Part shown: in pieces, positions 42,926 through 59,552 of the stretch
How positions within the stretch are numbered: position 1 is the first letter of the stretch
Layout: the number at the start of each line of letters is the position of its first letter
Assembly (NCBI RefSeq): GCF_012927085.1
Contig: NZ_JABBFX010000001.1
Coordinates: 1,240,001 to 1,304,000, forward strand
Direction of reading: 5' to 3'
DNA length: 64,000 nucleotides
Origin: Ramlibacter agri
Lineage (GTDB): Bacteria > Pseudomonadota > Gammaproteobacteria > Burkholderiales > Burkholderiaceae_C
The notes under the pieces: generated by a model
Databases searched by the model: none
Told to the model about the DNA's origin: nothing
The model's input: only the letters and a program-made list of their open reading frames with translations
Translations under genes and position numbers: made by a program

Positions 42926-42946
42926 CGCTTGTCTCCTTGGTTGTCG

Positions 42947-43858
42947 TCAGTGCAGGTTCGAAGCGCTGCCGGCGCGCGGGCCGAGCAGGCGGATGATGCG
43001 GCCGAACATGGCGTCGTCTTCGGCCATGTAGCGCGTGAACTCGTCGCCGAAGCGCCAGTCCACGGTGAACGACGAAGCCTGGGCCTCGCGCTGGAAGTCG
43101 GGGTTGGCGGCCACGCGGCGCAGCGCGGCGACGTAGCGCTCGCGGATCTTCGCAGGCAGGCCCTTGGGCGCGACCAGGCCGCGCCAGTGCGCCACCGACC
43201 AGGGGATGCCGAGCAACTCCTGCACGGTGGGCACGTCGGGGAAAGCCGGATGCCGCGCCGCATCCATGTTGGCCAGCGCGCGCGCTTCGCCGCTGCGCAG
43301 CGGGCCGCGGGCATCGGTCAATGTGATCGGCGCGACTTCGGCTTCGCCCGCGATCACCTTGGCCAGGCCTTGCTCGCCGCTGAGCGTCTCGGCCCACTCC
43401 AGGCGGCCGGCGTCGATCCCCAGCTTGTCCAGCAGCCCGACCAGCGAAAACTTCCAGACGCCGAAGTTGGGTCCGCCAGAGCCGACGATGTTGCGGCCGC
43501 GGCAGGTTTCCAGGAATTCGGCCAGCGTCTTCCAGGGCGCGTCCTGGCGCACGATGACCGCCGCTGCTTCGACGAAGGGCACGGCCAGCGGCGTGTAGTC
43601 CTCGGGCGTGAGCGGCGTGAGGCCGCCGAACCAATGCATCATGCCGATCTCGCCGCTGACCTGGCCGATGGTGCGGCCGTCCGGCGCCGCTTCGGCGATG
43701 GCCGTGTGGCCGACGATCGCGCCGGTGCGGTTGACGACCTCGACGCTTTCGCCGAGCTCGCCTGCGAGATAGCGCGCCACGAGACGCGCCCGTTGGTCGC
43801 TGCCGCCGCCCTGCACATAGGGGACGATCAGCTGGATCGCTTGTGTGTTCATTGTCAT
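42947..43858 (-). CDS. Bug/TctC-type protein without a signal peptide
   Basis: This 303-residue protein starts directly with the mature Bug fold (QLIVPYVQGGGSDQRARLVARYLAGELG). It continues through VVNRTGAIVGHTAIAEAAPDGRTIG and FPDVPTVQELLGIPWSVAHWRGLVAPKGLP. No hydrophobic export signal is encoded upstream in this frame, and the next upstream bases are a typical G/C-rich spacer. It is either cytoplasmic, exported by a partner, or has lost its signal by mutation. It lies in series with the next Bug gene and the CoA-transferase-family gene. Confidence 0.8.
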   Translation of the reverse strand: MTMNTQAIQLIVPYVQGGGSDQRARLVARYLAGELGESVEVVNRTGAIVGHTAIAEAAPDGRTIGQVSGEIGMMHWFGGLTPLTPEDYTPLAVPFVEAAAVIVRQDAPWKTLAEFLETCRGRNIVGSGGPNFGVWKFSLVGLLDKLGIDAGRLEWAETLSGEQGLAKVIAGEAEVAPITLTDARGPLRSGEARALANMDAARHPAFPDVPTVQELLGIPWSVAHWRGLVAPKGLPAKIRERYVAALRRVAANPDFQREAQASSFTVDWRFGDEFTRYMAEDDAMFGRIIRLLGPRAGSASNLH

Positions 43859-43970
43859 CCCGCGCCTCCGGGCGCTTGTCTCCGCGGGGGATCGTAAGCA
43901 GAGGCCGCTGCCATGGACAGCGGGCGGGACGGATATCGTTTATTTGCCGCGTGGATATGCGCGGCGCGGC

Positions 43971-45224
43971 CTACATGCGCGCGCGCATCGCGTCCCAGGC
44001 GTTCGACAGCGCGTCGCGGTGCGCGGGCGCGGCGATGGCAATCAGTGCTTGCGCGCGGGCATCCATGGAGAGGTTGCGCACCTCCGCCCGGCCATGCTCG
44101 GTGACGACGACGTCGCAGCTCGTTCGCGGCAGCGTCACCAGGCCGCTGCTTTCGATGGCCGGCACGATGCGCGAGATGGCGCCCGAGCGCGTGGCCGCCG
44201 GCAGGCAAGTGAGGAAGCGTCCACCTGGCGAGCGCAGCGCGGCGGCGGCGAATGCGGGCAGGCCGCCGGCGCCTGCCAGCAGCGCGCCCTGCGCGCGCTC
44301 CGCGTTGACCTGCCCGAACAGGTCGACCTCGACGGCGCCGTTGATGGCGACGTAGCGCGGGATGGCGCCGCTGGCGCACGGGTCGTGCGTGGTCCGCACG
44401 TCCGTCATCCACAGGTTGGGGCGCGAAGCCGCGAAGGCCTGGAACTCCGTGTCGCCGAGGATGGCACCGGTGATGATCTGTGCGTCTTCTTCCAGGGCGC
44501 CGGCGTCCCACAAGGTCCGGAAGGCAGGCGTGAGCATGCCCGTGCGCAGGCGCAGGCGGCGATGGCCACGCAATCCTTCACCGGCCGCAAGCGGCACATC
44601 GCCGATGCCGACCTGCACCGTATCGCCATCGCGCACCAAGGCCGCGACGGAGGCCGCGATGCGCGCCTCCACCTCGCCTGGCGTCCCGGTGGCGTATTGC
44701 GTGATGGCGTGCTCGGCAAGCACCGCGCCATCCAGCTCCGACACGTGCACGCGGAAGCTGCCCGGCGTGCGCGGCATGCGCGGGTTGAGGTGCGCGATGC
44801 GCCGGCGCGCGCGCGGCCACACGATGGGCAGGAAGTCGCTGGTCAGGCCTAGGCTGCACCAGCCGTTGGCGTCCGGCAGGCTGAGTTGCGCGATGGCCAG
44901 GTCCACGGGCTCGCTGCTTTCCAGGTGCCGCGCGAGCGTGCCGTATTCCATCGGCAGCAGTGTCGCGCGGCCCTCGCGGATGCCCTGGCGCAGGCCGGGT
45001 GACATGAAGAAGCCTTCGGCGCGCGCGCCGGGGTGTAGCGCGAGATAGTCGATGCTGTCGATGCCCGGGAACTGGACGCCGGTGAAGGTGACGCCGTCCG
45101 CGCGTGCCGGGTCGCGGCGCAGTTCGTCCTGCAGCAGCAGCGGCTCGCTGCAGAGGGTGCTGGTCCACACGCGCTGCCCGGGGGCCAGTGCGTCGGACAG
45201 CCGGGGCAGTTCCGGGATTCTCAT
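43971..45224 (-). CDS. Acetyl-CoA hydrolase/transferase-family (CoA-transferase) protein
   Basis: This 417-residue protein resembles the Cat1/succinyl-CoA:acetate CoA-transferase and 4-hydroxybutyrate CoA-transferase family: VWTSTLCSEPLLLQDEL at the start, SLPDANGWCSLGLTSDFLPIV and VQVGIGDVPLAAGEGLRGHRRL in the middle. The AAALRSPGGRFLTCLPAATRSGAISRIVP and VVVTEHGRAEVRNLSMDARAQALIAIA blocks belong to the second half. The active-site Glu expected in an E-x-G-x-x-G context is not obvious by eye. It probably moves CoA onto an imported acid. It is divergent from the MDR gene, and operator A lies 10 bases upstream of its start. Confidence 0.8.
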   Translation of the reverse strand: MRIPELPRLSDALAPGQRVWTSTLCSEPLLLQDELRRDPARADGVTFTGVQFPGIDSIDYLALHPGARAEGFFMSPGLRQGIREGRATLLPMEYGTLARHLESSEPVDLAIAQLSLPDANGWCSLGLTSDFLPIVWPRARRRIAHLNPRMPRTPGSFRVHVSELDGAVLAEHAITQYATGTPGEVEARIAASVAALVRDGDTVQVGIGDVPLAAGEGLRGHRRLRLRTGMLTPAFRTLWDAGALEEDAQIITGAILGDTEFQAFAASRPNLWMTDVRTTHDPCASGAIPRYVAINGAVEVDLFGQVNAERAQGALLAGAGGLPAFAAAALRSPGGRFLTCLPAATRSGAISRIVPAIESSGLVTLPRTSCDVVVTEHGRAEVRNLSMDARAQALIAIAAPAHRDALSNAWDAMRARM

Positions 45225-45233
45225 CGCCGTTCA

Positions 45234-45247
45234 GTAAGCTGACATAC
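45234..45247. promoter_or_regulatory. Regulon operator A (GTAAGCTGACATAC)
   Basis: A member of the six-site dyad family GTAYG-N4-CRTAC. It lies in the 40-base gap between the divergent CoA-transferase and MDR genes. Its right half overlaps TACGAT, a possible -10 box for the MDR gene, whose ATG follows only 14 bases later. Confidence 0.6.
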
Positions 45248-45264
45248 GATATCCTAGCAAACCT

Positions 45265-46290
45265 ATGAAGGCACTCCTCTGCAGGCAATTCGGGCACTAC
45301 CGCGACCTGGACTTCTGCGACGTGGATCCCCCCGCGCTGCAGCCCGGCCACGTGCGCATCGCCGTCCACTACGCGACGGCGGGCTATGGCCAGACGGTGG
45401 TGATCGCCGGCAAGTACCAGCGCAAGCCGCCGCTGCCCTTCGTGCCGGGCACGGAGGCTTCGGGCGTGGTGCTGGAGGCCGCGCCCGACGTCACGGCGTT
45501 CAAGCCGGGCGACCGCGTCGCTGCGTCGCTGGACTGGGGCGCCTATGGCGAGCAGGCGGTGGCGACCGCGGCGACGACCTGGCACGTGCCGGATGCCATC
45601 CCGCTGGAGGTCGCGGCGACGGTTCCCCTCACCTACGGCACGGCGTACGCGGCGCTGCACTGGCGCGCGCGCTTGCAGCCTGGCGAGACAGTGTTGGTCT
45701 ACGGTGCGGCCGGAGGCGTGGGCCTGCCGGCCGTGGAGATCGCCCGCCTCGCGGGCGCGCGGGTGATCGCGGTGGCGGGGTCGGCGGAGCGCGCGCAAGT
45801 GGCCCGCGAACACGGCGCGCATGAAGTCGTCGTGCACCGGGCCGGCGAGGGCGAGGCGCCGCTGTCCGCCAAGGTGCTCGCGGCCACCGGCGGGCGCAAG
45901 GTGGACGTCGTCTTCGATCCCGTGGGCGGCAGCTTCTTCGACGAGGCGCTGCGCTGCATCCGGCCGGAAGGCCGCATCGTCCTGATCGGGTTCGCCAGCA
46001 ACGAGGTGCCGCGCATCCCCGGCAACATCCTGCTGGTGAAGAACGCCGAGGTCATCGGCTTCTGGTTCGGCCTCTACCTCGGCTGGGGCCAGGTCGACGA
46101 GCGCGCCCAGTACCAGGAGCGCCTGCGCCAGCTGATGGACAAGTTGTTCGCGCACGTGGCCGCCGGCGACTTGAAGCCGACCAGTTCCGTCATCTATCCC
46201 TTGCCGCGGCTGGCCGATGCCTTCGACGAAGTGCTGGCGCGGCGCGCCGTGGGCCGCGCGCTGGTGCAGGTCGCCGGCGCCTTGCCCTGA
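45265..46290 (+). CDS. NADPH:quinone oxidoreductase-family (MDR) protein
   Basis: This 341-residue zinc-free medium-chain reductase has the N-terminal GroES-like domain with GTEASGVVLEAAPDV and GDRVAASLDWGAYGEQ. The nucleotide-binding loop VYGAAGGVGLPAVEIAR is near residue 150, and VDVVFDPVGGSFFDEALRCIRPEGR is typical of quinone reductases and enoyl reductases. It probably reduces an enoyl/enone intermediate. No ribosome site is seen, and the message may be nearly leaderless. It is the first of a series with the acyl-CoA ligase 52 bases downstream. Confidence 0.86.
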   Translation: MKALLCRQFGHYRDLDFCDVDPPALQPGHVRIAVHYATAGYGQTVVIAGKYQRKPPLPFVPGTEASGVVLEAAPDVTAFKPGDRVAASLDWGAYGEQAVATAATTWHVPDAIPLEVAATVPLTYGTAYAALHWRARLQPGETVLVYGAAGGVGLPAVEIARLAGARVIAVAGSAERAQVAREHGAHEVVVHRAGEGEAPLSAKVLAATGGRKVDVVFDPVGGSFFDEALRCIRPEGRIVLIGFASNEVPRIPGNILLVKNAEVIGFWFGLYLGWGQVDERAQYQERLRQLMDKLFAHVAAGDLKPTSSVIYPLPRLADAFDEVLARRAVGRALVQVAGALP

Positions 46291-46293
46291 TCG

Positions 46294-46307
46294 GTACGGT
46301 AGCATAC
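46294..46307. promoter_or_regulatory. Regulon operator B (GTACGGTAGCATAC)
   Basis: A full match to the dyad GTAYG-N4-CRTAC, 36 bases before the AMP-ligase start. TTGCCC (46282-46287) and TACGAT (46305-46310), 17 bases apart, may form the promoter, so a bound regulator would cover the -10 box. Confidence 0.65.
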
Positions 46308-46342
46308 GATAAGCAGATCAACAAGACAACGGAGACAAAGCA

Positions 46343-47902
46343 ATGCCGCGACTGCACCAGTGGGCCGCGACCCAGCCCAACAAGCTGGCCATCCAGATGG
46401 CCGACGGGCCCGCACTGAGCTACGAGGAGCTCGATGCGCGCGCAAACCGCGTCGCGAACTGGCTGTTGTCGCTGGGCCTGCCGGAGGGCGCTTCGGTGGC
46501 GTTGCTGCTGGAAAACCGACTGGAGACTTTCGAGCTGTGGTGGGGCGCGCGCCGGGCCGGCGTCTACTACGTGCCGGTGAGCACGCACCTGAAGCCGGCC
46601 GAAGTTGCCTACCTGTTGCGTGACAGCGGCGCCAGCGTGCTGGTGACGAGCGATTGCCTGGCCGAGGTCGCGCAAGGTGTGCTTGCGCTGCTGGAGGACG
46701 GCGAAGTGCGGCACCGCTATGCCATGGGCGGGGAGCTCGCCGGCTTCGCGCGCTACGAGCCGGCCATCGCGGCGGCTTCCGCCTCCGCGGACCTGCCGCC
46801 GCGCAGCCAGGGCCGCGAGTTCATGTATTCCTCGGGCACGACCGGTTTTCCCAAAGGGATCAAGCGCGCGCTCGCGCCCTATGCCCGGCGCATGGACCTG
46901 CCGGAGCTGGAGCGGCAGCTGCGCACCATGTTCCAGCTCGATGCCGAGACGGTCTACATCTCGCCCTCGCCGCTGTACCACGCCACCGGCCGCTTCGTCA
47001 TCCGCGTCATCGAAACCGGCGGCACGGCAGTGATCCTGCCGAAGTTCGACGCCGAAGGCGCGCTGGCCGCGATGGCGCGCTACCGCGTCACGCACGGCCA
47101 CTGGGTGCCGACCATGTTCATCCGCATGCTGGCGCTGGACCCGCAGGTGCGCGCAAGCTACGACCTGTCCTGCGTGCGCGTGGCCTTGCATGCGACGGCG
47201 CCGTGCCCGCCCAAGGTCAAGCAGGCCATGATCGACTGGTGGGGACCGGTGATCAACGAGTACTACGGCGGCTCCGAGAACGTGGGCGTCACCTACATCA
47301 ACGGGCCGGACTGGCTGCGGCATCCCGGCTCGGTGGGCGTGCCCATCACCGGAGAAGTGCACATCACCTCGGAAGACGACCCCGAGCGGGAATTGCCGCC
47401 GGGCGAAATCGGCCTGATCTACTTCAGCGGCGGTGTCGGCTTCGAATACCACCGCGACGCGACGAAGACGCGCGGCGCCTTCAACGGCCGGGGCTGGGGC
47501 ACCTACGGTGACCTCGGGCACGTGGACGGCGATGGCTTCCTGTTCATCAGCGACCGCCGCACCGACCTGGTCATCTCCGGCGGCGTGAACATCTATCCGC
47601 AGGAGGTGGAGAACGCGCTGCTGGATCACGAAGCCGTCGCCGACGCGGCCGTCATCGGCGTGCCGCACGCGGAGTTCGGGCAGGAGGTGAAGGCGGTGGT
47701 GCAGCTGAAGCCGCATTGCGCTGCCAGCCCGCAGCTGGCCGGCGAACTGGTGGAGTGGTGCCGCGGCCGGCTGTCGCGGATCAAGAGCCCGCGCACCGTC
47801 GACTTCGTCGCCGAGGTGCCGCGCAGCGACAACGGCAAGCTGCTGCGCCGCGTGCTGCGGGACCGCTATGCGCAGCAGGCGGCCGTCGCCACGGCCGCCT
47901 GA
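46343..47902 (+). CDS. AMP-forming acyl-CoA synthetase
   Basis: This 519-residue ANL-superfamily ligase has the P-loop MYSSGTTGFPKGIK (about residues 161-174), the A5 region NEYYGGSENVGVT, the hinge/A8 segment ISDRRTDLVISGGVNIYPQE and the C-terminal catalytic Lys in RSDNGKLLRR. It activates a carboxylic acid to its CoA thioester. The binding pocket does not identify the acid. A good ribosome site (ggagacaaagca) precedes the ATG. The upstream operator B and MDR gene place it in the local regulon. Confidence 0.9.
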   Translation: MPRLHQWAATQPNKLAIQMADGPALSYEELDARANRVANWLLSLGLPEGASVALLLENRLETFELWWGARRAGVYYVPVSTHLKPAEVAYLLRDSGASVLVTSDCLAEVAQGVLALLEDGEVRHRYAMGGELAGFARYEPAIAAASASADLPPRSQGREFMYSSGTTGFPKGIKRALAPYARRMDLPELERQLRTMFQLDAETVYISPSPLYHATGRFVIRVIETGGTAVILPKFDAEGALAAMARYRVTHGHWVPTMFIRMLALDPQVRASYDLSCVRVALHATAPCPPKVKQAMIDWWGPVINEYYGGSENVGVTYINGPDWLRHPGSVGVPITGEVHITSEDDPERELPPGEIGLIYFSGGVGFEYHRDATKTRGAFNGRGWGTYGDLGHVDGDGFLFISDRRTDLVISGGVNIYPQEVENALLDHEAVADAAVIGVPHAEFGQEVKAVVQLKPHCAASPQLAGELVEWCRGRLSRIKSPRTVDFVAEVPRSDNGKLLRRVLRDRYAQQAAVATAA

Positions 47903-47911
47903 GCCCAGGCC

Positions 47912-48889
47912 TTACTCGAAGTTGATGTAGGAAACGTCGCGGATGATGGCCTGCCAGCGGGCCATGTCCGTGCGCGTGATCTCGTTGGCCTGCGCGGAGT
48001 TCGTGCCGGTCGTGTCGATGCCGAAGGACAGCAGGCGCGACTGCATGTCCGGCGACTTGACGATCTTCGCCAGCTCGGTCGACAGCCGGTCGACGATGGG
48101 GTGCGGCGTCTGGGCCGGCGCGAACACGGCCCACCAGGGCGAGAACGCTTCCATGCCGGCGATGCCTTGCTCGGCGAAGGTCGGCACGTCGGGCAGCGAA
48201 GCCGAGCGCTTGGTGCCCGTCACCGCGATGGGGCGAATCTTGCCCGCCTTCACCTGGCCGGCGGCGGTGCCGATGTCCGCGACGGCGGACATCAGGTTGC
48301 CCGCCATCAGGTCCTGCAGTTCCGGCGCCACGCCCTTGTAGGGCACGTGGACCATCTTCATGCCGGCCTCGCGGTTCAGGATCTCGCCCAGCACGTGCGC
48401 GCTGGAGCCGTTGCCGTAGGAACCGAAGTTGGCCTTGTCCGGCGCGGCCTTGCTGGCGGCGACCAGGTCCTTGACGTTCTGCACGGGCGACGTGGCGTTC
48501 ACGTACAGCACCAGCGGCGTGCTGCCCAGGTGGGACACGGTCGTCAGGTCCTTCTGCACGTCGTAGGGCACCTTCTTCATCGTGAAAGGTACCATGACGA
48601 TGGGCGTGCTGGTCGTGAACAGCAGCGTGTAGCCATCGGGCTGCGCCTGCGCCACCAGCACCGTCCCCAGCGTCAGCGACGCGCCGGGCTTGTTCTCCAC
48701 GAGCACGGGCTGGCCCAGGGCCCCTCCCAGCTTCTCGGCGAACAGGCGGGCCACGACGTCGCTCGGCCCGCCGGCCGAGGCGGGCACGATGAAGCGGATC
48801 GCCCGGGCAGGGTAGCGGTCCTCGGCCCAGGAGGCTGCGGCGGTGCAGGCCAGGGCGGCAATGGCGGTCTTCAGCAGGATGCGGCGCAT
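47912..48889 (-). CDS. Bug/TctC-type tripartite tricarboxylate transporter receptor
   Basis: This 325-residue periplasmic receptor has a signal peptide (MRRILLKTAIAALACTAAASWA), then YPARAIRFIVPASAGGPSDVVARLF, GQPVLVENKPGAS, PDGYTLLFTTSTP and LPDVPTFAEQGIAGMEAFSPWW. I chose ATG 48889, with ggagaca upstream, over two in-frame codons further up. It is convergent with the ligase gene and divergent from the SDR gene, with operator C between them. Confidence 0.88.
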   Translation of the reverse strand: MRRILLKTAIAALACTAAASWAEDRYPARAIRFIVPASAGGPSDVVARLFAEKLGGALGQPVLVENKPGASLTLGTVLVAQAQPDGYTLLFTTSTPIVMVPFTMKKVPYDVQKDLTTVSHLGSTPLVLYVNATSPVQNVKDLVAASKAAPDKANFGSYGNGSSAHVLGEILNREAGMKMVHVPYKGVAPELQDLMAGNLMSAVADIGTAAGQVKAGKIRPIAVTGTKRSASLPDVPTFAEQGIAGMEAFSPWWAVFAPAQTPHPIVDRLSTELAKIVKSPDMQSRLLSFGIDTTGTNSAQANEITRTDMARWQAIIRDVSYINFE

Positions 48890-48931
48890 CGGTTCTGTCT
48901 CCTTCATGATCTTTACGTCACCGTGCATATG

Positions 48932-48945
48932 GTATCGTTGCATAC
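48932..48945. promoter_or_regulatory. Regulon operator C (GTATCGTTGCATAC)
   Basis: A dyad of the GTAYG-N4-CRTAC family (one mismatch), midway in the 84-base gap between the divergent Bug and SDR genes. A further ATATGG half-site precedes it. It could repress both promoters. Confidence 0.62.
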
Positions 48946-48973
48946 GTTATCTTTCAACGGTTCCGGAGGCGAC

Positions 48974-49888
48974 GTGGCCAGACTGCTCGAAGGCAAGGTG
49001 ATCGTGGTAACCGGCGCGGGCGCCGGCGTGGGCAAGGAAATCGCGCTCGAAGCTGCCCGGCAGGGCGCGCGCGTGGTCGTCAACGACCTCGGTGTCAACA
49101 TCGACGGCAGCGGCGGCAGCGCCGGGCCGGCGCAGCAGGCGGTGGACGAGATCCGCGCCGCCGGCGGCGAGGCCGTGGCCAGCACGGACAGCGTGGCCGA
49201 ATGGAAGTCGGCCCAGCGCATCGTCGGCATGGCGCTGGACATGTACGGCCGCATCGACGGCCTGGTGAACAACGCCGGCAACCTGCGCGACATCATCTTC
49301 CACAAGATGCCGGAAGAGGACTTCGACGCCGTGGTGGCCGTGCACCTGAAGGGCTCGTTCAACATGGCCCGCGCGGCGGCGCCGCACTTCAAGACCGAGG
49401 AGAGCGGCGCCTACGTGCACATGACCTCCACCTCCGGCCTGATCGGCAACTTCGGCCAGGCCAACTACTGCTCGGCGAAGATGGGCGTGGTGGGCCTGTC
49501 GAAGGCGATCGCGCTGGACATGGAGCGCTTCAACGTCCGCTCCAACTGCATCGCGCCCTTCGCCTTCACTCGCATGGTCAACACCATTCCGACCGACACG
49601 CCGGAAGGCCTGGCACGGATGAAAGTGAACCAGCGGCTGGAGGCGGCCAAGATCGCGCCCTTCACCTGCGCGCTGCTCACCGACGCCGCCAAGGGCGTCA
49701 CCGGCCAGATCTTTGGCGTCCGCAACAACGAGATCTACCTGTTCTCGCAGCCGCGGCCGATCCGCACCGCGCACCGCGGCGAAGGCTGGACGGTGGAAGC
49801 CTGCCTGGAGGTGGCCATCCCGATGATGCAACCTTCGTTCTATCCGCTGGACAAGTCGCGCGACGTGTTCTCCTGGGACCCGGTCTGA
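48974..49888 (+). CDS. SDR family oxidoreductase (peroxisomal MFE-2-like)
   Basis: This 304-residue classical SDR has the cofactor loop VTGAGAGVGKEIA, VVVNDLGVNIDGSG, NNAGNLRD, catalytic Ser in HMTSTSGLIG and YxxxK in YCSAKMG. The N-D-L-G-x-x-x-D/H-G-S-G pattern matches the 3-hydroxyacyl-CoA dehydrogenase domain of multifunctional enzyme type 2. The start is a GTG at 48974 with a strong ggaggc site. Upstream in-frame codons lie in the operator region. It probably oxidises a 3-hydroxyacyl-CoA. Confidence 0.87.
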   Translation: MARLLEGKVIVVTGAGAGVGKEIALEAARQGARVVVNDLGVNIDGSGGSAGPAQQAVDEIRAAGGEAVASTDSVAEWKSAQRIVGMALDMYGRIDGLVNNAGNLRDIIFHKMPEEDFDAVVAVHLKGSFNMARAAAPHFKTEESGAYVHMTSTSGLIGNFGQANYCSAKMGVVGLSKAIALDMERFNVRSNCIAPFAFTRMVNTIPTDTPEGLARMKVNQRLEAAKIAPFTCALLTDAAKGVTGQIFGVRNNEIYLFSQPRPIRTAHRGEGWTVEACLEVAIPMMQPSFYPLDKSRDVFSWDPV

Positions 49889-49953
49889 ACGGACTGGGCT
49901 GCCGATTGGGGCGCTAGCGTAAAATCAAAAATCTGCCGTATTTTCGCAAGCCC

Positions 49954-50511
49954 ATGAAAGCTGCCACCAAGACCCGTGCCACCCCGCAGCGCAAGGCGGC
50001 CGCACCGGCTGCCGCCCCGCGCGCTCGCGTGCAAAAAGTCCCGGACGCGGACAACTGGGACGCCCGCCTCGGCTTCCTCATGCACGACGTGTCGCGGCTG
50101 CGCCGCAGCGTGTTCGACGAGTTCATGAGGCCCAGCGGGCTGACGCGCTCGCAATGGTGGATCCTGGCACACCTGTCGCGCCACGACGGGATGATCCAGA
50201 GCGACCTGGCCAACATGCTGGACCTGGGCAAGGCCGCCCTCGGCGGCCTGCTGGACCGGCTGGAAGCCTCGCAGCAGATCGAGCGCCGCGCCGACGAGGC
50301 GGACCGGCGCGTGAAGCGCATCTACCTCACGGGCAAGGGCGCGCAGGCCATCCAGGAAATGCGCGTGAAGGGCCACGAGGTCAGCGAGCGCATCCTCGAG
50401 GGCCTGGACCTCCCGGCCCGCCGCACGCTCCTGGACAACCTGGCGCTGGTCAAGTCCAACCTGCTGGCGCTGCGCGCCGAGGTGCAGAAGACGCGCGGCA
50501 ACGGCGGCTGA
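49954..50511 (+). CDS. MarR family transcriptional regulator
   Basis: This 185-residue winged-helix regulator has a Lys/Ala/Pro-rich N-terminal tail (about 30 residues), then LTRSQWWILAHLSRHDGMIQSDLANMLDLGKAALGGLLDRLEAS as the DNA-binding part (about residues 62-108) and the wing RRADEADRRVKRIYLTGKG. It is central to the catabolic region, and its own upstream region has an AT-rich TAAAAT -10-like box at 49920-49925. It is the nearest candidate to read the six GTAYG-N4-CRTAC sites, although its own promoter lacks one. A terminator follows the gene. Confidence 0.87.
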   Translation: MKAATKTRATPQRKAAAPAAAPRARVQKVPDADNWDARLGFLMHDVSRLRRSVFDEFMRPSGLTRSQWWILAHLSRHDGMIQSDLANMLDLGKAALGGLLDRLEASQQIERRADEADRRVKRIYLTGKGAQAIQEMRVKGHEVSERILEGLDLPARRTLLDNLALVKSNLLALRAEVQKTRGNGG

Positions 50512-50531
50512 GCGCGCCTCCCATCGATGCC

Positions 50532-50556
50532 AAGGGCGCCTGCGGGCGCCCTTTTT
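50532..50556 (+). terminator. Intrinsic terminator after the MarR gene
   Basis: AAGGGCGCC (50532-50540) pairs with GGCGCCCTT (50545-50553) around a TGCG loop, and the stem is followed by more T. It ends the marR-type transcript before operator D. Confidence 0.85.
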
Positions 50557-50575
50557 GCTGGCCGCCGCAAAATAG

Positions 50576-50589
50576 GTCTGCTACCATAC
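50576..50589. promoter_or_regulatory. Regulon operator D (GTCTGCTACCATAC)
   Basis: A dyad of the GTAYG-N4-CRTAC family (one mismatch in the left half), 34 bases before the acyl-CoA dehydrogenase start. TACGAT at 50587-50592 overlaps its right half. Confidence 0.6.
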
Positions 50590-50622
50590 GATCTCGATAC
50601 GAACTGATATGCGAGGCAGGCT

Positions 50623-51789
50623 TTGGATTTCGATCTCAGCGACGACCAGCGTGCGATCCAGGAGGCGGTGGCCGACATCTGCACGCCTTACGACGACGAG
50701 TACTGGCTGAAGAAGGACCGCGAAGGCGGCTTCCCGGAGGACTTCTACCAGGCGATGGCCAAGGCCGGCTGGCTGGGCATCGCGATGCCGCAGGAGTACG
50801 GCGGCTCGGGCCTCGGCATCCTCGAGGCGGCGCTGATGATGGAGACGGTGTCCGCCACGGGCGCCTGCCTGTCGGGCGCCTCGGCCATCCACATGAACGT
50901 GTTCGGCCTGCACCCGGTGGTGGTGCACGGCACGCCGGAGCAGAAGCAGCGCTGGCTGCCGCCCATCATCAACGGCCAGGCCAAGGCCTGCTTCGGCGTC
51001 ACGGAGCCCAACACCGGCCTCAACACGCTGAAGCTGAAGACGATGGCGGTGCGCAAGGGCGACCGCTACGTGGTCAACGGCCAGAAGATCTGGATCTCCA
51101 CTGCGCAGGTCGCGCAGAAGATCCTGCTGCTGGCGCGCACGACGCCGATCGACGAGGTGAAGTCGTCCACGCATGGCCTCAGCCTGTTCTATACCGACCT
51201 GGACCGCAGCCGCATTGAGGTGCGCGAGATCGAGAAGCTGGGGCGCAAGTCGGTCGACTCCAACCAGCTGTTCATCGACAACCTCGAGATCCCGGTGGAA
51301 GACCGCATCGGCGAGGAAGGCCGCGGCTTCGAATACATCCTGCACGGCATGAACCCCGAGCGCGTGCTGCTGGCCGCCGAGGCCACCGGCATCGGCCGCG
51401 CCGCGCTGCGCCGCGCCGCGCGCTATGCGGGTGAGCGCATCGTGTTCGACCGGCCGATCGGCAAGAACCAGGGCGTGCAGCATCCGCTGGCCGAGCGCTG
51501 GGTGGACCTGGAGGCGGGCACCTTGCTGTACCGCCGCGCCGGCTGGCTGTACGACCAGGGCCGCAACTGCGGCGCCGAAGCCAACGCCGCCAAGTTCTTC
51601 TGCGCCGAAGCCGGCTTCCGTGCCGCGGAGACGGCGGTGCTGACGCACGGCGGCATGGGCTACGCCAAGGAATACCACGTCGAGCGCTACCTGCGCGAAG
51701 CCATGCTGCCGCGCATCGCGCCGGTGTCCATCCAGCTGATCCTGTCGTTCATCGCCGAAAAGGTGCTGGGCCTGCCCAAGTCGTATTGA
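50623..51789 (+). CDS. Acyl-CoA dehydrogenase
   Basis: This 388-residue flavoenzyme has a standard three-domain ACAD plan: N-terminal helices (DQRAIQEAVADIC), the FAD-contacting ACFGVTEPNTGLNTLKLKT and the beta domain (NGQKIWISTAQ). C-terminal helices carry GKNQGVQHPLAERWVDLEAG and THGGMGYAKEYHVERYLREA. It dehydrogenates an acyl-CoA to the enoyl-CoA. The chain-length class is unclear. The start is a TTG at 50623 with gagg upstream. The following SDR gene begins 22 bases downstream. Confidence 0.9.
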   Translation: MDFDLSDDQRAIQEAVADICTPYDDEYWLKKDREGGFPEDFYQAMAKAGWLGIAMPQEYGGSGLGILEAALMMETVSATGACLSGASAIHMNVFGLHPVVVHGTPEQKQRWLPPIINGQAKACFGVTEPNTGLNTLKLKTMAVRKGDRYVVNGQKIWISTAQVAQKILLLARTTPIDEVKSSTHGLSLFYTDLDRSRIEVREIEKLGRKSVDSNQLFIDNLEIPVEDRIGEEGRGFEYILHGMNPERVLLAAEATGIGRAALRRAARYAGERIVFDRPIGKNQGVQHPLAERWVDLEAGTLLYRRAGWLYDQGRNCGAEANAAKFFCAEAGFRAAETAVLTHGGMGYAKEYHVERYLREAMLPRIAPVSIQLILSFIAEKVLGLPKSY

Positions 51790-51811
51790 GAAACCCGAGG
51801 AGACGAGAGAA

Positions 51812-52714
51812 ATGAAGCTTTGCGAAGGCCGCGTGGCCATCGTTACCGGCGCCGGCCGCGGCCTGGGCCGGGCCCATGCCCTGATGCTGGCGAAGCACGG
51901 CGCCAAGGTCGTCGTCAACGACTTCGGCGGCGCCGCGGACGGCAGCGGCAGCCACGATGCGACACCGGCGGAGGAAGTGGTCGCCACGATCCGCGCCTTC
52001 GGCGGCGAGGCCGTCACCGACACGCACAACGTGGCCGACTGGCAGGGCGCCAAGGCCATGGTCGATCGCGCCGTGAGCGCTTTTGGCGGCCTCGACATCC
52101 TGGTGAACAACGCCGGCATCCTGCGCGACCGCATGCTGGTGAACATGACCGAGCAGGAGTGGGATTCGGTCATCAACGTCCACCTGAAGGGGACCTTCGC
52201 CCCCACGCACCATGCGGCCAACTACTGGCGCCAGCAGCAGAAAGCGGGCAAGACCGTCGATGCGCGCGTGATCAACACGACTTCGCACTCCGGCCTGTTC
52301 TGCAACATCGGCCAGGCGAACTACGCCGCCGCCAAGGCCGGCATCGCCAGCTTCTCGCTGGTGGCCGCGCGCGAGTTGCAGCGCTATGGCGTCACGGTGA
52401 ATGCAATTGCTCCGCGCGCCGAAACCCGCATGACGCACGGCCTGCGCGAGTGGACGCCGGAACAGCTGGAGCGCCGCGACCCCGAGTGGATCGCCGCGCT
52501 GGTCACCTGGCTGGCCAGCCCGGAAGCCGCGGATGTGAGCGGACGCGTGTTCGAGGCCTGGGGCTACGGCTACACGGTGGCGGAGAGCTGGCAGCACGGC
52601 CCCATCACCGAAGCCTCGCGCGATCCCGCCGGCCTGGGCGAGAAGATCGAACAGGTCGTGCGCTTCGCGCGCCCCAACGCCGGCATCGACCGCGACACCT
52701 GGCTGGCGGTCTGA
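51812..52714 (+). CDS. SDR family oxidoreductase (MFE-2-like 3-hydroxyacyl-CoA dehydrogenase type)
   Basis: This 300-residue SDR has the cofactor loop VTGAGRGLGRAHALMLAKHGAK, VVVNDFGGAADGSG, NNAGILRDRMLVNM, Ser in NTTSHSGLFCN and YxxxK in YAAAKAG. The N-D-F-G-x-x-x-D-G-S-G element again points to the multifunctional-enzyme-2 dehydrogenase group. A good ribosome site (gaggagacgagaga) precedes the ATG. It follows the acyl-CoA dehydrogenase, the order expected for beta-oxidation-type steps. Confidence 0.88.
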   Translation: MKLCEGRVAIVTGAGRGLGRAHALMLAKHGAKVVVNDFGGAADGSGSHDATPAEEVVATIRAFGGEAVTDTHNVADWQGAKAMVDRAVSAFGGLDILVNNAGILRDRMLVNMTEQEWDSVINVHLKGTFAPTHHAANYWRQQQKAGKTVDARVINTTSHSGLFCNIGQANYAAAKAGIASFSLVAARELQRYGVTVNAIAPRAETRMTHGLREWTPEQLERRDPEWIAALVTWLASPEAADVSGRVFEAWGYGYTVAESWQHGPITEASRDPAGLGEKIEQVVRFARPNAGIDRDTWLAV

Positions 52715-52759
52715 ACGCGGGACTCAGGGTAGTCCCGGGGCTTCGTCGGTTTACATACC

Positions 52760-52773
52760 GTATGGTGCCGTAC
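52760..52773. promoter_or_regulatory. Regulon operator E (GTATGGTGCCGTAC)
   Basis: A full match to the dyad GTAYG-N4-CRTAC, 41 bases before the Bug gene. It overlaps on its left with another small dyad, CATAC-C-GTATG (52754-52764), and on its right with TACTAAT, a possible -10 box. Confidence 0.68.
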
Positions 52774-52813
52774 TAATATGGCGGCTTCCGGATCAATCGC
52801 ACTGGAGCCCGTG

Positions 52814-53785
52814 GTGTCCCTTTCCCGTCGCCATCTGCTGGCCGCGCTCGCGGCCGGCGCTTCCCCTCTCGCAGCTCGCGCCATCGACCTGCCCGGCCGG
52901 CCGGTGAAGATCGTCGTGCCGTTCACGCCCGGCGGCGTCGGCGACGTGTTCGCCCGCGTCGCGGGCGAGATCATGGCCAAGGACCTGGGCCAGACCGTGA
53001 TCGTCGAGAACAAGCCTGGCGCCAACCAGATGCTTGCCGCCGCGGCGGTGGGGCAGGCACCGCCGGACGGCCACATGCTGTACCAGGCCACCAGCACGGC
53101 CATCCTGAACCCGATGCTGTACAAGAAGCTGGCCTACGACCCGAAGTCGCTGAAGCCGCTGTGGATAGGCATCGAGACGCCGCTGATCTACGTGATCAAC
53201 CCGAAGGTGCCGGCGAAGACGCTGTCCGAGTTCGCGGCCTGGGCACGCGCCAACGCGGGCAAGGCCAACTACTCGTCGATCGGCCCGGGCAACGTGCTGC
53301 ACCTCGGCGCGGAAAAGCTCAAGCAGGTCGGCAACTTCGACATGGTGCACGTGCCCTATGCCGGGCGCTCGGCGGACGCGATCAACGCGGTGCTCGCCGG
53401 CGACGTCGAGATGATGTGCACCATCGCGGGCCAGGCCGTTCCCTTCGTGCAGGCCGGCAAGCTGCGGGGGCTGGCGGTCACCTCCGCGCAGCGCCTGCCG
53501 GTGCTGCCGGACGTGCCCACCGCCGCCGAGGCGGGCTTCCCGAGCCTGGCGGTGGCGTCCTGGTACGGCCTGTACGTGCACAGCGCGACGCCGGATCCCG
53601 TGGCCAACAAGTTGCGCCTGGCGGCGGACAAGGCGCTGGCGGACACTGCCTTCCGCGAGCGCTTCATCGCCCAGGGCGCCGTCATCGCGCCACCGCGCAG
53701 CGGCGCGGAGGTGGCGCACTACGTCGAAGAGAACTCCAGGTACTGGGGCGAGATCATCCGCGCCCAGAAGATCGAGCTGGACTGA
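52814..53785 (+). CDS. Bug/TctC-type tripartite tricarboxylate transporter receptor
   Basis: This 323-residue receptor has an N-terminal signal with a paired Arg (SLSRRHLLAALAAGASPLAARA), possibly Tat. Bug blocks are GRPVKIVVPFTPGGVGDVFARV, GQTVIVENKPGANQ and VLPDVPTAAEAGFPSLAV. The GTG at 52814 is preferred: ggag precedes it, and the ATG at 52778 lies too close to the probable -10 box. It ends directly against the convergent enoyl-CoA hydratase gene. Confidence 0.85.
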   Translation: MSLSRRHLLAALAAGASPLAARAIDLPGRPVKIVVPFTPGGVGDVFARVAGEIMAKDLGQTVIVENKPGANQMLAAAAVGQAPPDGHMLYQATSTAILNPMLYKKLAYDPKSLKPLWIGIETPLIYVINPKVPAKTLSEFAAWARANAGKANYSSIGPGNVLHLGAEKLKQVGNFDMVHVPYAGRSADAINAVLAGDVEMMCTIAGQAVPFVQAGKLRGLAVTSAQRLPVLPDVPTAAEAGFPSLAVASWYGLYVHSATPDPVANKLRLAADKALADTAFRERFIAQGAVIAPPRSGAEVAHYVEENSRYWGEIIRAQKIELD

Positions 53786-54586
53786 TCACTCGCCGCGGAA
53801 GACGGGCTTGCGCTTTTCCAGGAAGGCGCGCGGGCCCTCCAGGAAATCCTCGCTCGCGGCGGCAGCGCCCATGCCGCGGGCTTCGGCCGCCAGCTGTTCG
53901 GCGAGCGTGCTGCCCAGGGAGCGGTGGATCAGCGCCTTGGCCTGTGCCAGCGCAATCGCCGGGCCGCGGGCCAGCCGGTGCGCCAGGGCCAGTGTGAAGG
54001 TTTCCAGTTCGGCGTCGTCCACCACGTGGCTCACCAACCCTTGTGCCAGCGCCGAAGTCGCATCGAGCCGCTCGCCGAGCAGTGCCATCGCCATCGCGCG
54101 CTTGCTGCCGATCGCCCGCGGCAGGAACCAGCTGGTGCCGCCGTCGGGACACGCTCCGATGTTCACGTGCGCCAGCTGGAAGCCGGCACTGCGCCCCGCC
54201 ACCACCAGGTCGCAGCCCACCGCGAAGCCCACGCCCGCCCCCGCGGCCGTGCCATGCACCATGGCGATGACGGGCTGCGGGATCCGCTGCAGCACGTTGA
54301 ACAGGTAGGTGTTCTTCGCGACGCGTGCTTCCACTGCCTGGCGGCGCTGCGCGGGCTCCAGCTGCGCGTACTGCGCGAAGCTGCGGATGTCGCCGCCGGC
54401 CATGAAATGCTCGCCGGCGCCGGCCAGCACGATGCAGCGGATGCGGCGGTCTTCTTCGGCGCGCAGCAGGAAGGCCAGCAGCGCCTCCAGCATCTCGGGA
54501 CTGGCTGCGTTGCGTGCCTCCGGCCGGTTGAACGTCAGGCGCGCAACGCCGTCCTCGACCGCGACGAGGAGATGGTCCGCGCTCAT
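53786..54586 (-). CDS. Enoyl-CoA hydratase/isomerase family protein
   Basis: This 266-residue crotonase-fold protein has NRPEARNAASPEML, the oxyanion-forming GAGEHFMAGGDIRSF, AAGAGVGFAVGCDLVVAG and GACPDGGTSWFLPRAIG, where the two acidic residues of hydratases would sit. It probably hydrates or isomerises an enoyl-CoA. Its start overlaps the acyl-CoA dehydrogenase stop by ATGA, so the two are coupled. Confidence 0.88.
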   Translation of the reverse strand: MSADHLLVAVEDGVARLTFNRPEARNAASPEMLEALLAFLLRAEEDRRIRCIVLAGAGEHFMAGGDIRSFAQYAQLEPAQRRQAVEARVAKNTYLFNVLQRIPQPVIAMVHGTAAGAGVGFAVGCDLVVAGRSAGFQLAHVNIGACPDGGTSWFLPRAIGSKRAMAMALLGERLDATSALAQGLVSHVVDDAELETFTLALAHRLARGPAIALAQAKALIHRSLGSTLAEQLAAEARGMGAAAASEDFLEGPRAFLEKRKPVFRGE

Positions 54587-55743
54587 GAACGCGCGGCGTC
54601 CGCCTTGAACAGGCTCTTGCCGATGATGGACTTCATGGTCTCGATGGAGCCGCCTGCGATGCGCGTGATGCGCGCATCGGCGTAAGCCCGCGCGATCGGG
54701 TATTCCCACATGTAGCCCCAGCCGCCGAACAGCTGCAGGCACTGGTCGACGACGCGTCCATGCAGCTCGGACAGCCACAGCTTCACCATGGCGGCGTCGG
54801 TTCCATCGAGCTTGCCGTCCATGAACTGGCGCACGCAGTGGTCGGTGAATACGCGGCCCACGGTCACCTCGGTCTTCAGTTCGGCCAGCTTGAACTGCGT
54901 GTTCTGGAAATCGGCCAGCGTCTGGCCGAACATCTTGCGTTCCTTGACGTGGTCGATGGTCCACTGCAGCGCGGCTTCGGCGACGGCCGCCGAGCGCACC
55001 GCCTGCGTCAGCCGCTCCTGCGCCAGGTTCTTCATCAGCAGCTTGAAGCCGCCGTGCTCCGGGCCCAGCAAGGCGGAGGCCGGCACCCGCATGTTGTCGA
55101 AGAAGAGCTCGGAAGTGTCCTGCGCCTTCAGCCCCAGCTTCTCCAGCCGCTTGCCGCGCACGAAGCCGGGCCGGTTGGTCTCGACGATGAACAGCGAAAT
55201 GCCGCCGCCGGCGGCGCCGGGGTCCGTCTTGCAAGCCAGCACCAGCACGTCGCAGATCTGGCCGTTGGAGATGAAGGTCTTCTGGCCGTTGATGACGTAG
55301 CTGTCGCCGTCGCGCTCGGCGCGCGTGCGCATGCCCTTCAAGTCGCTGCCGGCCTGCGGCTCGGTGAGGCCCAGCGCGCCGATCAGCTCGCCGCGCACCA
55401 TGGGCGGCAGGTAGCGCTGCTTCTGCGCTTCGCTGCCGAAAGCCAGGATGTAGGGCATCACCATCTCGTTGTGGACGGCGAAGGCGGGGCCGGTGTAACC
55501 GGCGGCGGACACTTCTTCCACCAGCGCGAAGTTGAAGAGCGCGTCGGCGCCGGCGCCTCCGTATTCCTCGGGGATCGAGCAGCCCAGCAGGCCGGCGGCG
55601 CCGGCCTTGCGCCAAAGCTCGCGCGGCACCTGGCCGTCGCGTTCCCACTGCGCGTGGAAGGGCGCGATCTCGGTATCGATGAAGCGGCGGACGGTGTCGC
55701 GGAAGGCCTGGTGTTCCGGGCCGTACAGGGTGCGTTCCAGCAT
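54583..55743 (-). CDS. Acyl-CoA dehydrogenase (long-chain-type)
   Basis: This 386-residue dehydrogenase has GLTEPQAGSDLKGMRTRAE (FAD-contacting), NGQKTFISNGQ, ERKMFGQTLADFQNTQFKLAEL and LFGGWGYMWEYPIARAYADARITRIAGGS. The last is the C-terminal GGxGY and R-x-x-x-I-x-x-G-x-x block that binds the second FAD of the dimer. The start ATG 55743 has gaggaaa upstream and lies beside operator F. It is transcribed with the hydratase gene. Confidence 0.9.
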   Translation of the reverse strand: MLERTLYGPEHQAFRDTVRRFIDTEIAPFHAQWERDGQVPRELWRKAGAAGLLGCSIPEEYGGAGADALFNFALVEEVSAAGYTGPAFAVHNEMVMPYILAFGSEAQKQRYLPPMVRGELIGALGLTEPQAGSDLKGMRTRAERDGDSYVINGQKTFISNGQICDVLVLACKTDPGAAGGGISLFIVETNRPGFVRGKRLEKLGLKAQDTSELFFDNMRVPASALLGPEHGGFKLLMKNLAQERLTQAVRSAAVAEAALQWTIDHVKERKMFGQTLADFQNTQFKLAELKTEVTVGRVFTDHCVRQFMDGKLDGTDAAMVKLWLSELHGRVVDQCLQLFGGWGYMWEYPIARAYADARITRIAGGSIETMKSIIGKSLFKADAARS

Positions 55744-55780
55744 GTCGTTTCCTCGGCTGCGCAGTGCGGGCGCCGAATTA

Positions 55781-55794
55781 GTATGGTTGCGTAC
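55781..55794. promoter_or_regulatory. Regulon operator F (GTATGGTTGCGTAC)
   Basis: A full match to the dyad GTAYG-N4-CRTAC, in the 96-base gap between the divergent acyl-CoA dehydrogenase gene and the HMG-CoA-synthase-like gene. It is followed by CATAAT (55802-55807), a likely -10 box of the rightward operon. Confidence 0.68.
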
Positions 55795-55839
55795 TGTATG
55801 CCATAATATTTTCCAGAGCAACCAACCCGAAAGGCGGCG

Positions 55840-57300
55840 ATGGCCAGCAAGGATGCCCCGGGGATCACCGGATTCGGCGGGTATGTCCCGCGACTGCGCA
55901 TGGAGCGGACGGCCATCGCGGCCGCCCACAAGTGGATGGCGCCCTCGCTGCGCTCGCTGGCCAAGGGCCGGCGCGCTTTCTGCAGCTGGGACGAGGACAG
56001 CGTGACGATGGCGGTGGAAGCCGCGCGCGACGCACTCGACGGGCGTGCCACGTCCGGCTTCACGAACCTGCTGTTCGCGTCCACCACCATGCCCTTCGCG
56101 GACCTGCAGAACAGCGCCCTCGTGCGCGCTGCGCTGGACCTGCCGCAGGACGTGCGCAGCGCGGACATCGGGCAGTCGCAGCGCGCCGGCACCGCGGCGC
56201 TGCTGCAGGCGCTGGCCAGCGGCCAGGCGGGCGACACGCTGGTGCTCGCGAGCGACAAGCCGCGCGGCAAGCCGGCGAGCACGCAGGAAATGACTTTCGG
56301 TGCCGGCGCCGCGGCTTTCCGCATCGGCCGCGACAACGTCCTCGCCACGCTGGAAGGCAGCGCCAGCAGTTCCACCGTCTTCGTCGACCACTTCCGCTCG
56401 GCCGACAACAAGTACGACTACTTCTGGGAAGAGCGCTGGATCCGCGACGAGGGCTACCTGAAGCTCGTGCCGCCCGTGGCCGCCGCTGCGCTGAAGGCGG
56501 CGGGCGTCACCGCCGGCGAGATCCAGCACTTCGTCATGGCTTCGCCCTTCCGCGGCGTCGTGGCGGCACTGGCGAAGAAGCTCGGCTTGCCCGAGGGCAG
56601 CCTGGCCGACGCGCTGGACGAGTCCTGCGGCTACAGCGGCAGCGCCCACGCCTTGCTGATGCTGGCGAACGTGCTGGAGAAGGCGAAGCCGGGCGAGCGC
56701 ATCCTGCTGGTCGGCTTCGGCCAGGGCTGCGACGCGCTGGTGCTGCAAGCCACGGACGCCATCACCGCCTTCAAGCCACGCCGTGGCGTGAGCGGCGCGC
56801 TGGCCGACGCCCAGCCGCACGATGCCTACCTGCGCATGCTGTCCTTCGAGGACGGGATCGAGCTGGAGTGGGGCATGCGCGCGGAGCGGCCGGTGAAGAC
56901 CGCGCTGACCGAGCAATACCGCTCGCGTGAGCAGATCTCCGGCTTCCGTGCGGGCCGCTGCCGCAAGTGCGGCACGGTGCAGTTCCCGCAACTGCCTTAC
57001 TGCGTGGAGCCGACTTGCGTGGCGCCGCGCGAGCAGTTCGATCAGGTCGGGCTGGCCGACGTCCCCTGCCAGGTGCTGACGCACACCGCCGACTGGCTGT
57101 CCTACCACCCGGCGCCGCCGCTCTACGTGGGCTTCGCGCAGTTCGACAACGGCGCGCGCCTGCAGATGGAGATGGTCGACGTGGGCGGGGCCGGCGTCGA
57201 GGTGGGGACGCAACTGCGCATGGTCTATCGCATCAAGGACCTCGATCGCAGCCGCGGCTACCCGCGCTACTTCTGGAAAGCAACGCCGGTTCAGGCCTGA
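55840..57300 (+). CDS. HMG-CoA-synthase/KAS III-like protein fused to a DUF35 zinc ribbon-OB domain, catalytic Cys missing
   Basis: This 486-residue protein has a thiolase-fold part (about 1-340) that opens ITGFGGYVPRLRM and resembles HMG-CoA synthase/KAS III. The nucleophile block, typically EACYGGTAA, reads GQSQRAGTAA here, with Gln at 114 in place of the Cys. The catalytic His block reads MASPF, with Ala near 234. A DUF35 part (about 365-486) follows, with a four-Cys zinc ribbon (CRKCGTVQFPQ...C...C, about residues 372-394) and an OB fold. It is probably a non-catalytic acyl-CoA-binding partner of the thiolase encoded next, like DUF35-containing thiolase complexes. This role is inferred. 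Confidence 0.8.
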   Translation: MASKDAPGITGFGGYVPRLRMERTAIAAAHKWMAPSLRSLAKGRRAFCSWDEDSVTMAVEAARDALDGRATSGFTNLLFASTTMPFADLQNSALVRAALDLPQDVRSADIGQSQRAGTAALLQALASGQAGDTLVLASDKPRGKPASTQEMTFGAGAAAFRIGRDNVLATLEGSASSSTVFVDHFRSADNKYDYFWEERWIRDEGYLKLVPPVAAAALKAAGVTAGEIQHFVMASPFRGVVAALAKKLGLPEGSLADALDESCGYSGSAHALLMLANVLEKAKPGERILLVGFGQGCDALVLQATDAITAFKPRRGVSGALADAQPHDAYLRMLSFEDGIELEWGMRAERPVKTALTEQYRSREQISGFRAGRCRKCGTVQFPQLPYCVEPTCVAPREQFDQVGLADVPCQVLTHTADWLSYHPAPPLYVGFAQFDNGARLQMEMVDVGGAGVEVGTQLRMVYRIKDLDRSRGYPRYFWKATPVQA

Positions 57301-57315
57301 AAGGAAACACCCGCC

Positions 57316-58518: not shown

Positions 58519-58521
58519 GGC

Positions 58522-59535: not shown

Positions 59536-59552
59536 AAAGGCAAGGAGGAGAC

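Follow-up and report, generated by a model that had tools for sequence, protein, structure and literature searches.

A cluster of acyl-CoA genes in Ramlibacter agri raises the question of which protein reads a short inverted repeat, GTAYG-N4-CRTAC, shared by its promoters, and to what effect. The cluster lies in a stretch of 64,000 nucleotides (contig NZ_JABBFX010000001.1, positions 1,240,001 to 1,304,000), analysed at its full length and called the window below. We propose that the MarR-family protein encoded at 49954-50511 uses these dyads as operators to repress a putative gene set for (R)-specific beta-oxidation, and we give this reading a probability of about 0.82. The sites, their placement at promoters, their 15-bp pairing, their conservation and their association with MarR genes were all computed here.

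Dyad sites in the window

An earlier note on this DNA had listed six 14-mers. Each was found at its coordinate, columns 1, 2, 7, 10, 12, 13 and 14 are invariant across the six, and three sites (45234, 48932 and 55781) lie in divergent gaps. The note saw no further copies; extra dyads occur at 52745, 45249, 55796 and, weakly, 48917, and a strong site lies beyond the window at G000:C1:1310677. It also credited each site with one correct half, and the dyad symmetry proved better than that, because the palindromes of relatives are near-perfect and have A/T-rich wings. At 52760 the distance to the start codon varies with the start chosen: the first ATG is at 52778, the gene caller's start for the same gene is 52904, and a start near 52811, of signal-peptide type, is likelier than the ATG at 52778. 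The sites are as follows (the 24-bp matrix is described below).

45234..45247, + strand: operator 1, GTAAGCTGACATAC, in the divergent gap between the CoA-transferase (-) and MDR (+) genes; 24.0 bits on the 24-bp matrix from other genomes
45249..45262, + strand: second dyad of operator 1, ATATCCTAGCAAAC, 15 bp downstream; 10.9 bits, and 15.9 bits on the other-genome matrix
46294..46307, + strand: operator 2, GTACGGTAGCATAC, before the acyl-CoA ligase gene
48917..48930, + strand: weak second dyad of operator 3, GTCACCGTGCATAT; 3.0 bits, and 8.8 bits on the other-genome 24-bp matrix
48932..48945, + strand: operator 3, GTATCGTTGCATAC, in the divergent gap between the Bug receptor (-) and SDR (+) genes
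49909..49922, + strand: tentative, degenerate dyad-like block before marR, GGGCGCTAGCGTAA, picked by eye; 0.4 bits on the 24-bp matrix
50576..50589, + strand: operator 4, GTCTGCTACCATAC, between marR and the gene of the acyl-CoA dehydrogenase ACAD1
52745..52758, + strand: second dyad of operator 5, GTCGGTTTACATAC, placed exactly 15 bp upstream of the primary one at 52760; 10.5 bits on the 24-bp matrix
52760..52773, + strand: operator 5, GTATGGTGCCGTAC, before a Bug receptor gene
55781..55794, + strand: operator 6, GTATGGTTGCGTAC, in the divergent gap between the acyl-CoA dehydrogenase (ACAD2)-enoyl-CoA hydratase (-) and HMG-CoA-synthase-like (HMGS)-thiolase (+) genes
55796..55809, + strand: second dyad of operator 6, GTATGCCATAATAT; 15.1 bits on the 24-bp matrix

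The pattern GTNNNNTNNCRTAC, built from the invariant columns, has 8 matches at 7 places in the window, compared with a mean of 0.63 and a maximum of 3 in 100 dinucleotide shuffles; chance is thus excluded as the source of the dyads in the window. The enrichment is local. In the 7.2-Mb genome as a whole the pattern has 38 matches at 37 places against 80 for the reversed control, and its relaxed form 69 against 126, so genome-wide over-representation was rejected. Seven of the 37 places fall within the 10.6-kb stretch that holds the six sites, and inspection by eye of the matches to the one-mismatch relaxed pattern in this genome found no second run of sites like it. In five relatives a stricter pattern was likewise rarer than its reversed control, and beyond the nearest genomes a matrix is needed.

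Whether the motif falls inside genes as often as in promoters depends on its strength. Of the 37 places, 29 could be classified by their surroundings (13 inside genes, 16 outside), and the loose pattern alone is not promoter-specific. All 10 places scoring at least 15 bits on a matrix of the six sites are intergenic, a set that includes the six training sites themselves, so the objection of equal frequency inside genes fails for strong sites. An additional target lies 6.7 kb past the window end (G000:C1:1310677, GTCTGCTAGCATACGATA), where the 14-mer ends 30 bp before the gene of a MaoC-domain hydratase. It is followed on the same strand by genes for a Bug receptor, an HpcH/HpaI lyase, a family III CoA-transferase and an acyl-CoA dehydrogenase that is 68% identical to ACAD2.

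Three other strong sites occur in this genome. One (G000:C1:809651, locus L039) is an intergenic dyad immediately beyond the 3' end of an IclR gene, beside a short unannotated open reading frame, and another, also intergenic (G000:C1:2614005, L041), lies some 60 bp upstream of an alpha/beta hydrolase gene. The dyad at G000:C1:3469401 (L040:6402; GTACGGTTGCGTAC), which scores 17.0 bits by its core and 7.5 bits by the 24-bp matrix, has its end 61 bp upstream of the called start of a gene for a PhaR-type regulator of polyhydroxybutyrate accumulation; it may link the control of storage polymer to the regulon, or it may be a chance match.

Operator architecture

The putative operator is a palindrome of about 24 bp, ATWT-N-GTATG-N4-CATAC-N-AWAT, with symmetric, A/T-rich wings (A, T, W, T before the core and A, W, A, T after it). 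Divergent sites were counted in both directions for the wings and in the placement survey, and each site entered the 24-bp matrix once, with the same wings. This matrix was trained on 33 sites from six other genomes, initially picked with the six-site core. Over 148 kb, including stretches selected for holding the pattern, exactly the six window sites rank first, followed by 1310677, 2614005 and 809651 and then by the secondary dyads 45249, 55796 and 52745.

Many sites are paired. When all offsets from 14 to 60 bp were scored around 43 primary sites, 16 of the 86 flanks reached at least 2 bits at +/-15, and 0-2 flanks did so at each other offset. The double dyads of the window are 45234/45249, 52745/52760, 55781/55796 and, weakly, 48917/48932. 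Others are found in the metagenome-assembled genomes (MAGs) of a Ramlibacter (L045) and a Polaromonas (L047), and in two further genomes, at L194 (8621/8636) and L197 (8666/8681), the last two lying outside the 86-flank count. Paired MarR operators are known from MexR, where two neighbouring palindromes are bound by two dimers; the 15-bp spacing and the GTATG-N4-CATAC core were both derived in this analysis.

At L183 (G440:C18), two near-identical promoter stretches about 5.4 kb apart (6759 and 12187) each carry the dyad GTATGCTGGGATAT, which suggests a duplicated operator region.

Conservation in related genomes

Comparison of orthologous promoters bears out the earlier idea of a local acyl-CoA regulon with dyad operators. 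Three loci retrieved through ligase similarity alone, from the Ramlibacter and Polaromonas MAGs and from a Proteobacteria MAG (L046), keep dyads before orthologous genes. The Ramlibacter MAG repeats four operators of the window: before the ligase gene (L045:9954), in the Bug/SDR gap (L045:12549, the same 14-mer as operator 3, with a 7.8-bit equivalent of the 48917 dyad at L045:12534), before ACAD1 (L045:14168, the same 14-mer as operator 4) and in the ACAD2/HMGS gap, where a double dyad (L045:18587/18602) matches operator 6 in position. In the Polaromonas MAG, dyads lie upstream of the ligase gene, in the same place as operator 2 (L047:9951), and of ACAD1 (L047:19731). The SDR orthologue of L046 is preceded by a dyad (L046:2653), and its ligase gene has none directly upstream.

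At a threshold of 13 bits, the cluster loci of six genomes (own included; 290,884 bp) hold 38 intergenic matches and 5 called in-gene. Two of these five are call errors, because the gene caller places the HMGS promoter dyads of L045 inside a gene. Control loci gave one intergenic match in 147,276 bp, and this match (L182) is on the same contig as the cluster of genome G440.

Upstream of marR, CGCTAGCGTAAAAT is common to the window, L045 and L047. The conserved block there (49909-49930 in the window), CGCTAGCGTAAAATMAAAAA, resembles the dyad core minus one half and has a -10-like end, TAAAAT.

Which protein reads the dyads

The protein at 49954 is a member of the MarR superfamily, as judged from a winged-helix domain that scores above the curated cut-offs of PF12802 (MarR_2; 49.9 bits, cut-off 27) and PF01047 (MarR; 47.3 bits, cut-off 24.6). 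The palindromic dyad co-occurs with this protein, and binding as a homodimer is predicted. No NCBIfam cut-off was reached: the best match, the SlyA equivalog (NF002926), scores 58.2 bits against a cut-off of 120, so the protein is not SlyA, and the HpaR equivalog (TIGR02337) was rejected at 41 bits against 121.2. Its recognition helix can be aligned with that of SlyA, and the SlyA residues given as base contacts in PMC4737184 (Ser62, Val64 and Arg65) fall, by our position mapping, on Ala95, Gly97 and Gly98.

Among the window genes with relatives of at least 50% identity in other cluster loci, marR is the only one that encodes a regulator. Relatives number 995 at E<=1e-25 with all clades lumped together. 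Close ones are rare, found in 5 of 399 family genomes at E<=1e-40 and in 4 of 399 genomes at the order level at E<=1e-36 (own included in both), the family survey scoring at most 8 first-look candidates per genome; distant MarR proteins would escape it at that E value. Two groups of relatives, clades A and B, are described below. On the six-site matrix, 8 of 16 MarR neighbourhoods, the window's own left aside, exceed all 160 control segments, which overlap one another (6 of 9 for clade A, 2 of 7 for the others). Loci retrieved via MarR alone (G440, G078, G458, G572 and G668) have promoter matrix hits, many of them at related enzymes. The called MarR start of G078 has a site 27 bp upstream. In G572 and G668, which belong to another family, a double dyad separates a MaoC-ACAD1 operon from a divergent MDR2-MarR pair, with BKACE, CaiB, hydratase, lyase and Bug genes nearby after ACAD1.

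Palindromic operators over promoters suit TetR proteins too, which counts in favour of a TetR reader encoded elsewhere, and the earlier note had considered one equally possible while naming MarR as the nearest candidate. The MarR candidacy stands and the parity does not, since the dyads track MarR and neither the enzymes nor the bacterial family, and change with the MarR clade. One such outside regulator would be FadP, which PMC5343134 presents as a predicted regulator of fatty-acid degradation in Comamonadaceae, and whose regulon would carry the motif at these genes irrespective of MarR. The HMGS-like protein, with matches in 11 of 399 family genomes (E<=1e-80, own included), offers a contrast between the two. 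All three of its loci with a clade-A MarR have an A dyad upstream (19.2, 14.1 and 13.4 bits; for G078 the 13.4-bit dyad sits about 200 bp away in a divergent gap, and an 11.3-bit dyad is closer), G163, the one locus with a clade-B MarR, shows a B dyad, and none of the seven same-family loci without a MarR detected at E<=1e-40 has either (A at most 9.9 bits, B at most 10.8). Gene divergence is partly confounded with MarR absence here, because those seven proteins are only 44-49% identical to that of the window; the G163 protein is equally divergent (46%), yet its dyad is present. The 77 ligase-homologue loci gave 7 matches at 13 bits or more in 1.49 Mb, and L048-L053 (two Curvibacter) gave none. 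MarR absence was checked in whole genomes for L048 and L051 and within the locus for L048-L055, so the remaining ligase loci are weaker controls. The outside sites examined precede no evident core fad gene. Judged by where the motif occurs, control by FadP or another outside TetR protein is therefore improbable, and the MarR protein at 49954 is strongly favoured, on these genomic associations, as the best candidate reader.

Mode of action and competing explanations

In the mechanism we propose, a MarR homodimer would bind the palindrome laid over the core promoter, and at several control points a second dimer would occupy the neighbouring dyad, its centre 15 bp (about 1.4 turns) away. Bound MarR would shut off the ligase, the acyl-CoA dehydrogenases, the MaoC/MFE-2 hydratase, the MFE-2-type dehydrogenase, the SCP2-type thiolase, the HMGS-like protein, the CoA-transferase and the Bug uptake receptors, until MarR is released by a pathway intermediate, most likely the CoA thioester of an imported branched acid. 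The pattern of sites and genes is what leads us to infer binding, repression, cooperativity, substrate and ligand. Repression is suggested by placement: the site centre lies 20-65 bp before a start codon in 33 of 56 oriented placements, which suits blocking of polymerase. The same figure speaks against MarR acting as an activator or dual regulator, with the dyads as activation sites at promoters with a poor -35, although visual inspection of the window shows no canonical -35 ahead of its -10-like hexamers and some MarR proteins do activate (PMC4737184). We regard activation as unlikely, if somewhat less so than a TetR reader. Least credible of all is that the shared element is merely a promoter core (an extended -10, CATACGAT) with chance symmetry. 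It draws on an observation of the earlier note that held for several sites, namely that the right half overlaps a TACGAT-like -10 hexamer. Conservation across genomes, however, extends to both halves and both A/T wings, the control loci, with promoters of their own, yielded the single match mentioned above, and a 15-bp dyad repeat is foreign to promoters; chance or a bare promoter core is rejected by the shuffles, the control loci, the control segments and the ranking on the 24-bp matrix.

Several points weigh against repression by MarR through these dyads. The overlap with the -10 is partly built in, since the motif itself holds -10-like letters, and repression is the likeliest mode of action as judged by position alone. 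Half of the 16 MarR neighbourhoods fail to beat the controls, including clade-A L131 (where dyads are present further off), L136 and L202, and five of the seven outside clade A. The strict pattern, with G at column 5, is absent from the G440 cluster loci and from L194/L197, occurs at one place in the G078 cluster, and is not enriched over its reversed control in those genomes, so conservation in the distant clusters rests on the matrix. The 24-bp matrix tests only the wings independently, owing to the way its training sites were found. For the strong genomic sites 809651, 2614005 and 3469401 (the last strong by its core alone), a clear link to the pathway is missing. Finally, the window's own marR promoter has only the degenerate block, and autoregulation would therefore need the SDR operon or a weak site.

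Genes of the cluster and the predicted pathway

The genes around the dyads are listed below.

41954..45224, - strand: CoA-transferase (AcetylCoA_hyd_C) and two Bug (TctC) receptors, downstream of operator 1 (Pfam, gene calls)
45265..46290, + strand: MDR oxidoreductase (Pfam)
46343..47902, + strand: acyl-CoA ligase (AMP-binding; Pfam); top NCBIfam match FadD4, 557 bits, under its cut-off of 850
47912..48907, - strand: Bug (TctC) receptor (PF03401, 257 bits), with 68-78% relatives in L045, L046, L047 and L183
48974..49888, + strand: SDR oxidoreductase upstream of marR, possibly co-transcribed with it (Pfam), with 85-91% relatives in L045, L046, L047 and L131
49954..50511, + strand: MarR-family regulator, the proposed dyad reader (Pfam MarR_2, MarR)
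50623..52714, + strand: acyl-CoA dehydrogenase ACAD1 and an MFE-2-type (3R)-hydroxyacyl-CoA dehydrogenase-like SDR (Pfam; the SDR matches PDB 2et6 at E 1.7e-100)
52778..53785, + strand: Bug (TctC) receptor (Pfam)
53786..55743, - strand: acyl-CoA dehydrogenase ACAD2 and enoyl-CoA hydratase (Pfam)
55840..60410, + strand: HMG-CoA-synthase-like protein with ChsH2-type zinc ribbon, SCP2-type thiolase, MDR2 reductase and MFE-2-type MaoC hydratase (Pfam, PDB)

Matches in Pfam, NCBIfam and PDB point to a putative (R)-specific, peroxisome-like beta-oxidation. The Bug receptors would serve an imported acid, and the substrate is predicted to be a branched carboxylic acid.

The HMGS-like protein (55840-57300) carries its zinc-ribbon segment near the C-terminus and adjoins the thiolase. 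In the archaeal thiolase/HMGCS complex (6esq/6et9) the corresponding parts are separate chains, and the protein of the window is apparently a fusion of them. The MaoC gene is followed, at 60425-62410, by a gene for a second AMP-binding acyl-CoA synthetase, whose N-terminal segment is of the acetyl-CoA-synthetase type; this synthetase has no relative of at least 50% identity in the other cluster loci.

Comparison with known systems

The closest worked precedent, by analogy, would be CouR of Rhodococcus jostii RHA1, described in PMC4737184 as a MarR-family repressor of a p-hydroxycinnamate cluster that loses its hold on DNA when it meets an acyl-CoA of the pathway, p-coumaroyl-CoA. As in that account, palindromic sites here lie at several promoters of the regulator's own CoA-dependent catabolic cluster, and single sites serve divergent pairs. 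Unlike the dyads of the window, which have the form GTATG-N4-CATAC and lie near the -10, the CouR box reported there is cATTGA/TCAATg with a 5-bp spacer and lies over the -35, and the CouR-named PDB chain 6c28 matches the 49954 protein only at E 1e-6. The FadP regulon of beta-proteobacteria, found in the same bacterial order, is also a repressor regulon of beta-oxidation operons (PMC5343134, PMC12543098). FadP differs in its protein family (TetR) and in having many fatty-acid operons genome-wide, whereas most strong sites here lie in about 25 kb around one MarR gene. No account of this regulon turned up in a search of open-licence papers. Switches of this type are well known, and this particular MarR regulon appears undescribed. 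The analysis assigns an operator and a probable regulon to a previously unnamed group of MarR proteins and links that group to (R)-specific, peroxisome-like beta-oxidation in beta-proteobacteria.

Two MarR clades and their proposed operators

The MarR relatives of the cluster include two paralogous clades. Clade A comprises 10 rows (support 85/88). Clade B consists of relatives at 47-54% identity (support 100/99), and its genes are flanked by dyads of the type GTKCR-CTAG-CGTAY. In a leave-one-out analysis of this variant, all 7 loci score above every one of the 160 control segments, the training sites having been chosen by eye near MarR genes beforehand and one identical site occurring in two loci. 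A third group, clade C, is found in other families at 43-45% identity. L200 has an A-like dyad and an unsure position in the tree.

Both clades are present in each of G440, G001 and G458. We tentatively suggest, at a little under even odds, that the two have split the operator code, clade A reading GTATG-N4-CATAC and clade B the variant dyad, so that parallel, related acyl-CoA pathways might run in one cell without cross-talk. Five MarR positions are fixed within clades A and B and differ between them. Two of them lie where the protein is expected to contact DNA, as judged from the SlyA alignment and PMC4737184: at residue 94, in the recognition helix, the change is from Ala to Val, and at residue 121, in the wing, from Lys to Asn. 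A two-residue exchange might therefore switch specificity. The natural A/B paralogue pairs thus offer a test of DNA recognition by MarR proteins with Ala-Gly-Gly at the usual base-reading positions.

Between the clade-B MarR paralogue of L044 (G001:C360) and the next gene, at about 4115-4165, we observed a dense series of overlapping GTAC/TTAGTG palindromes.

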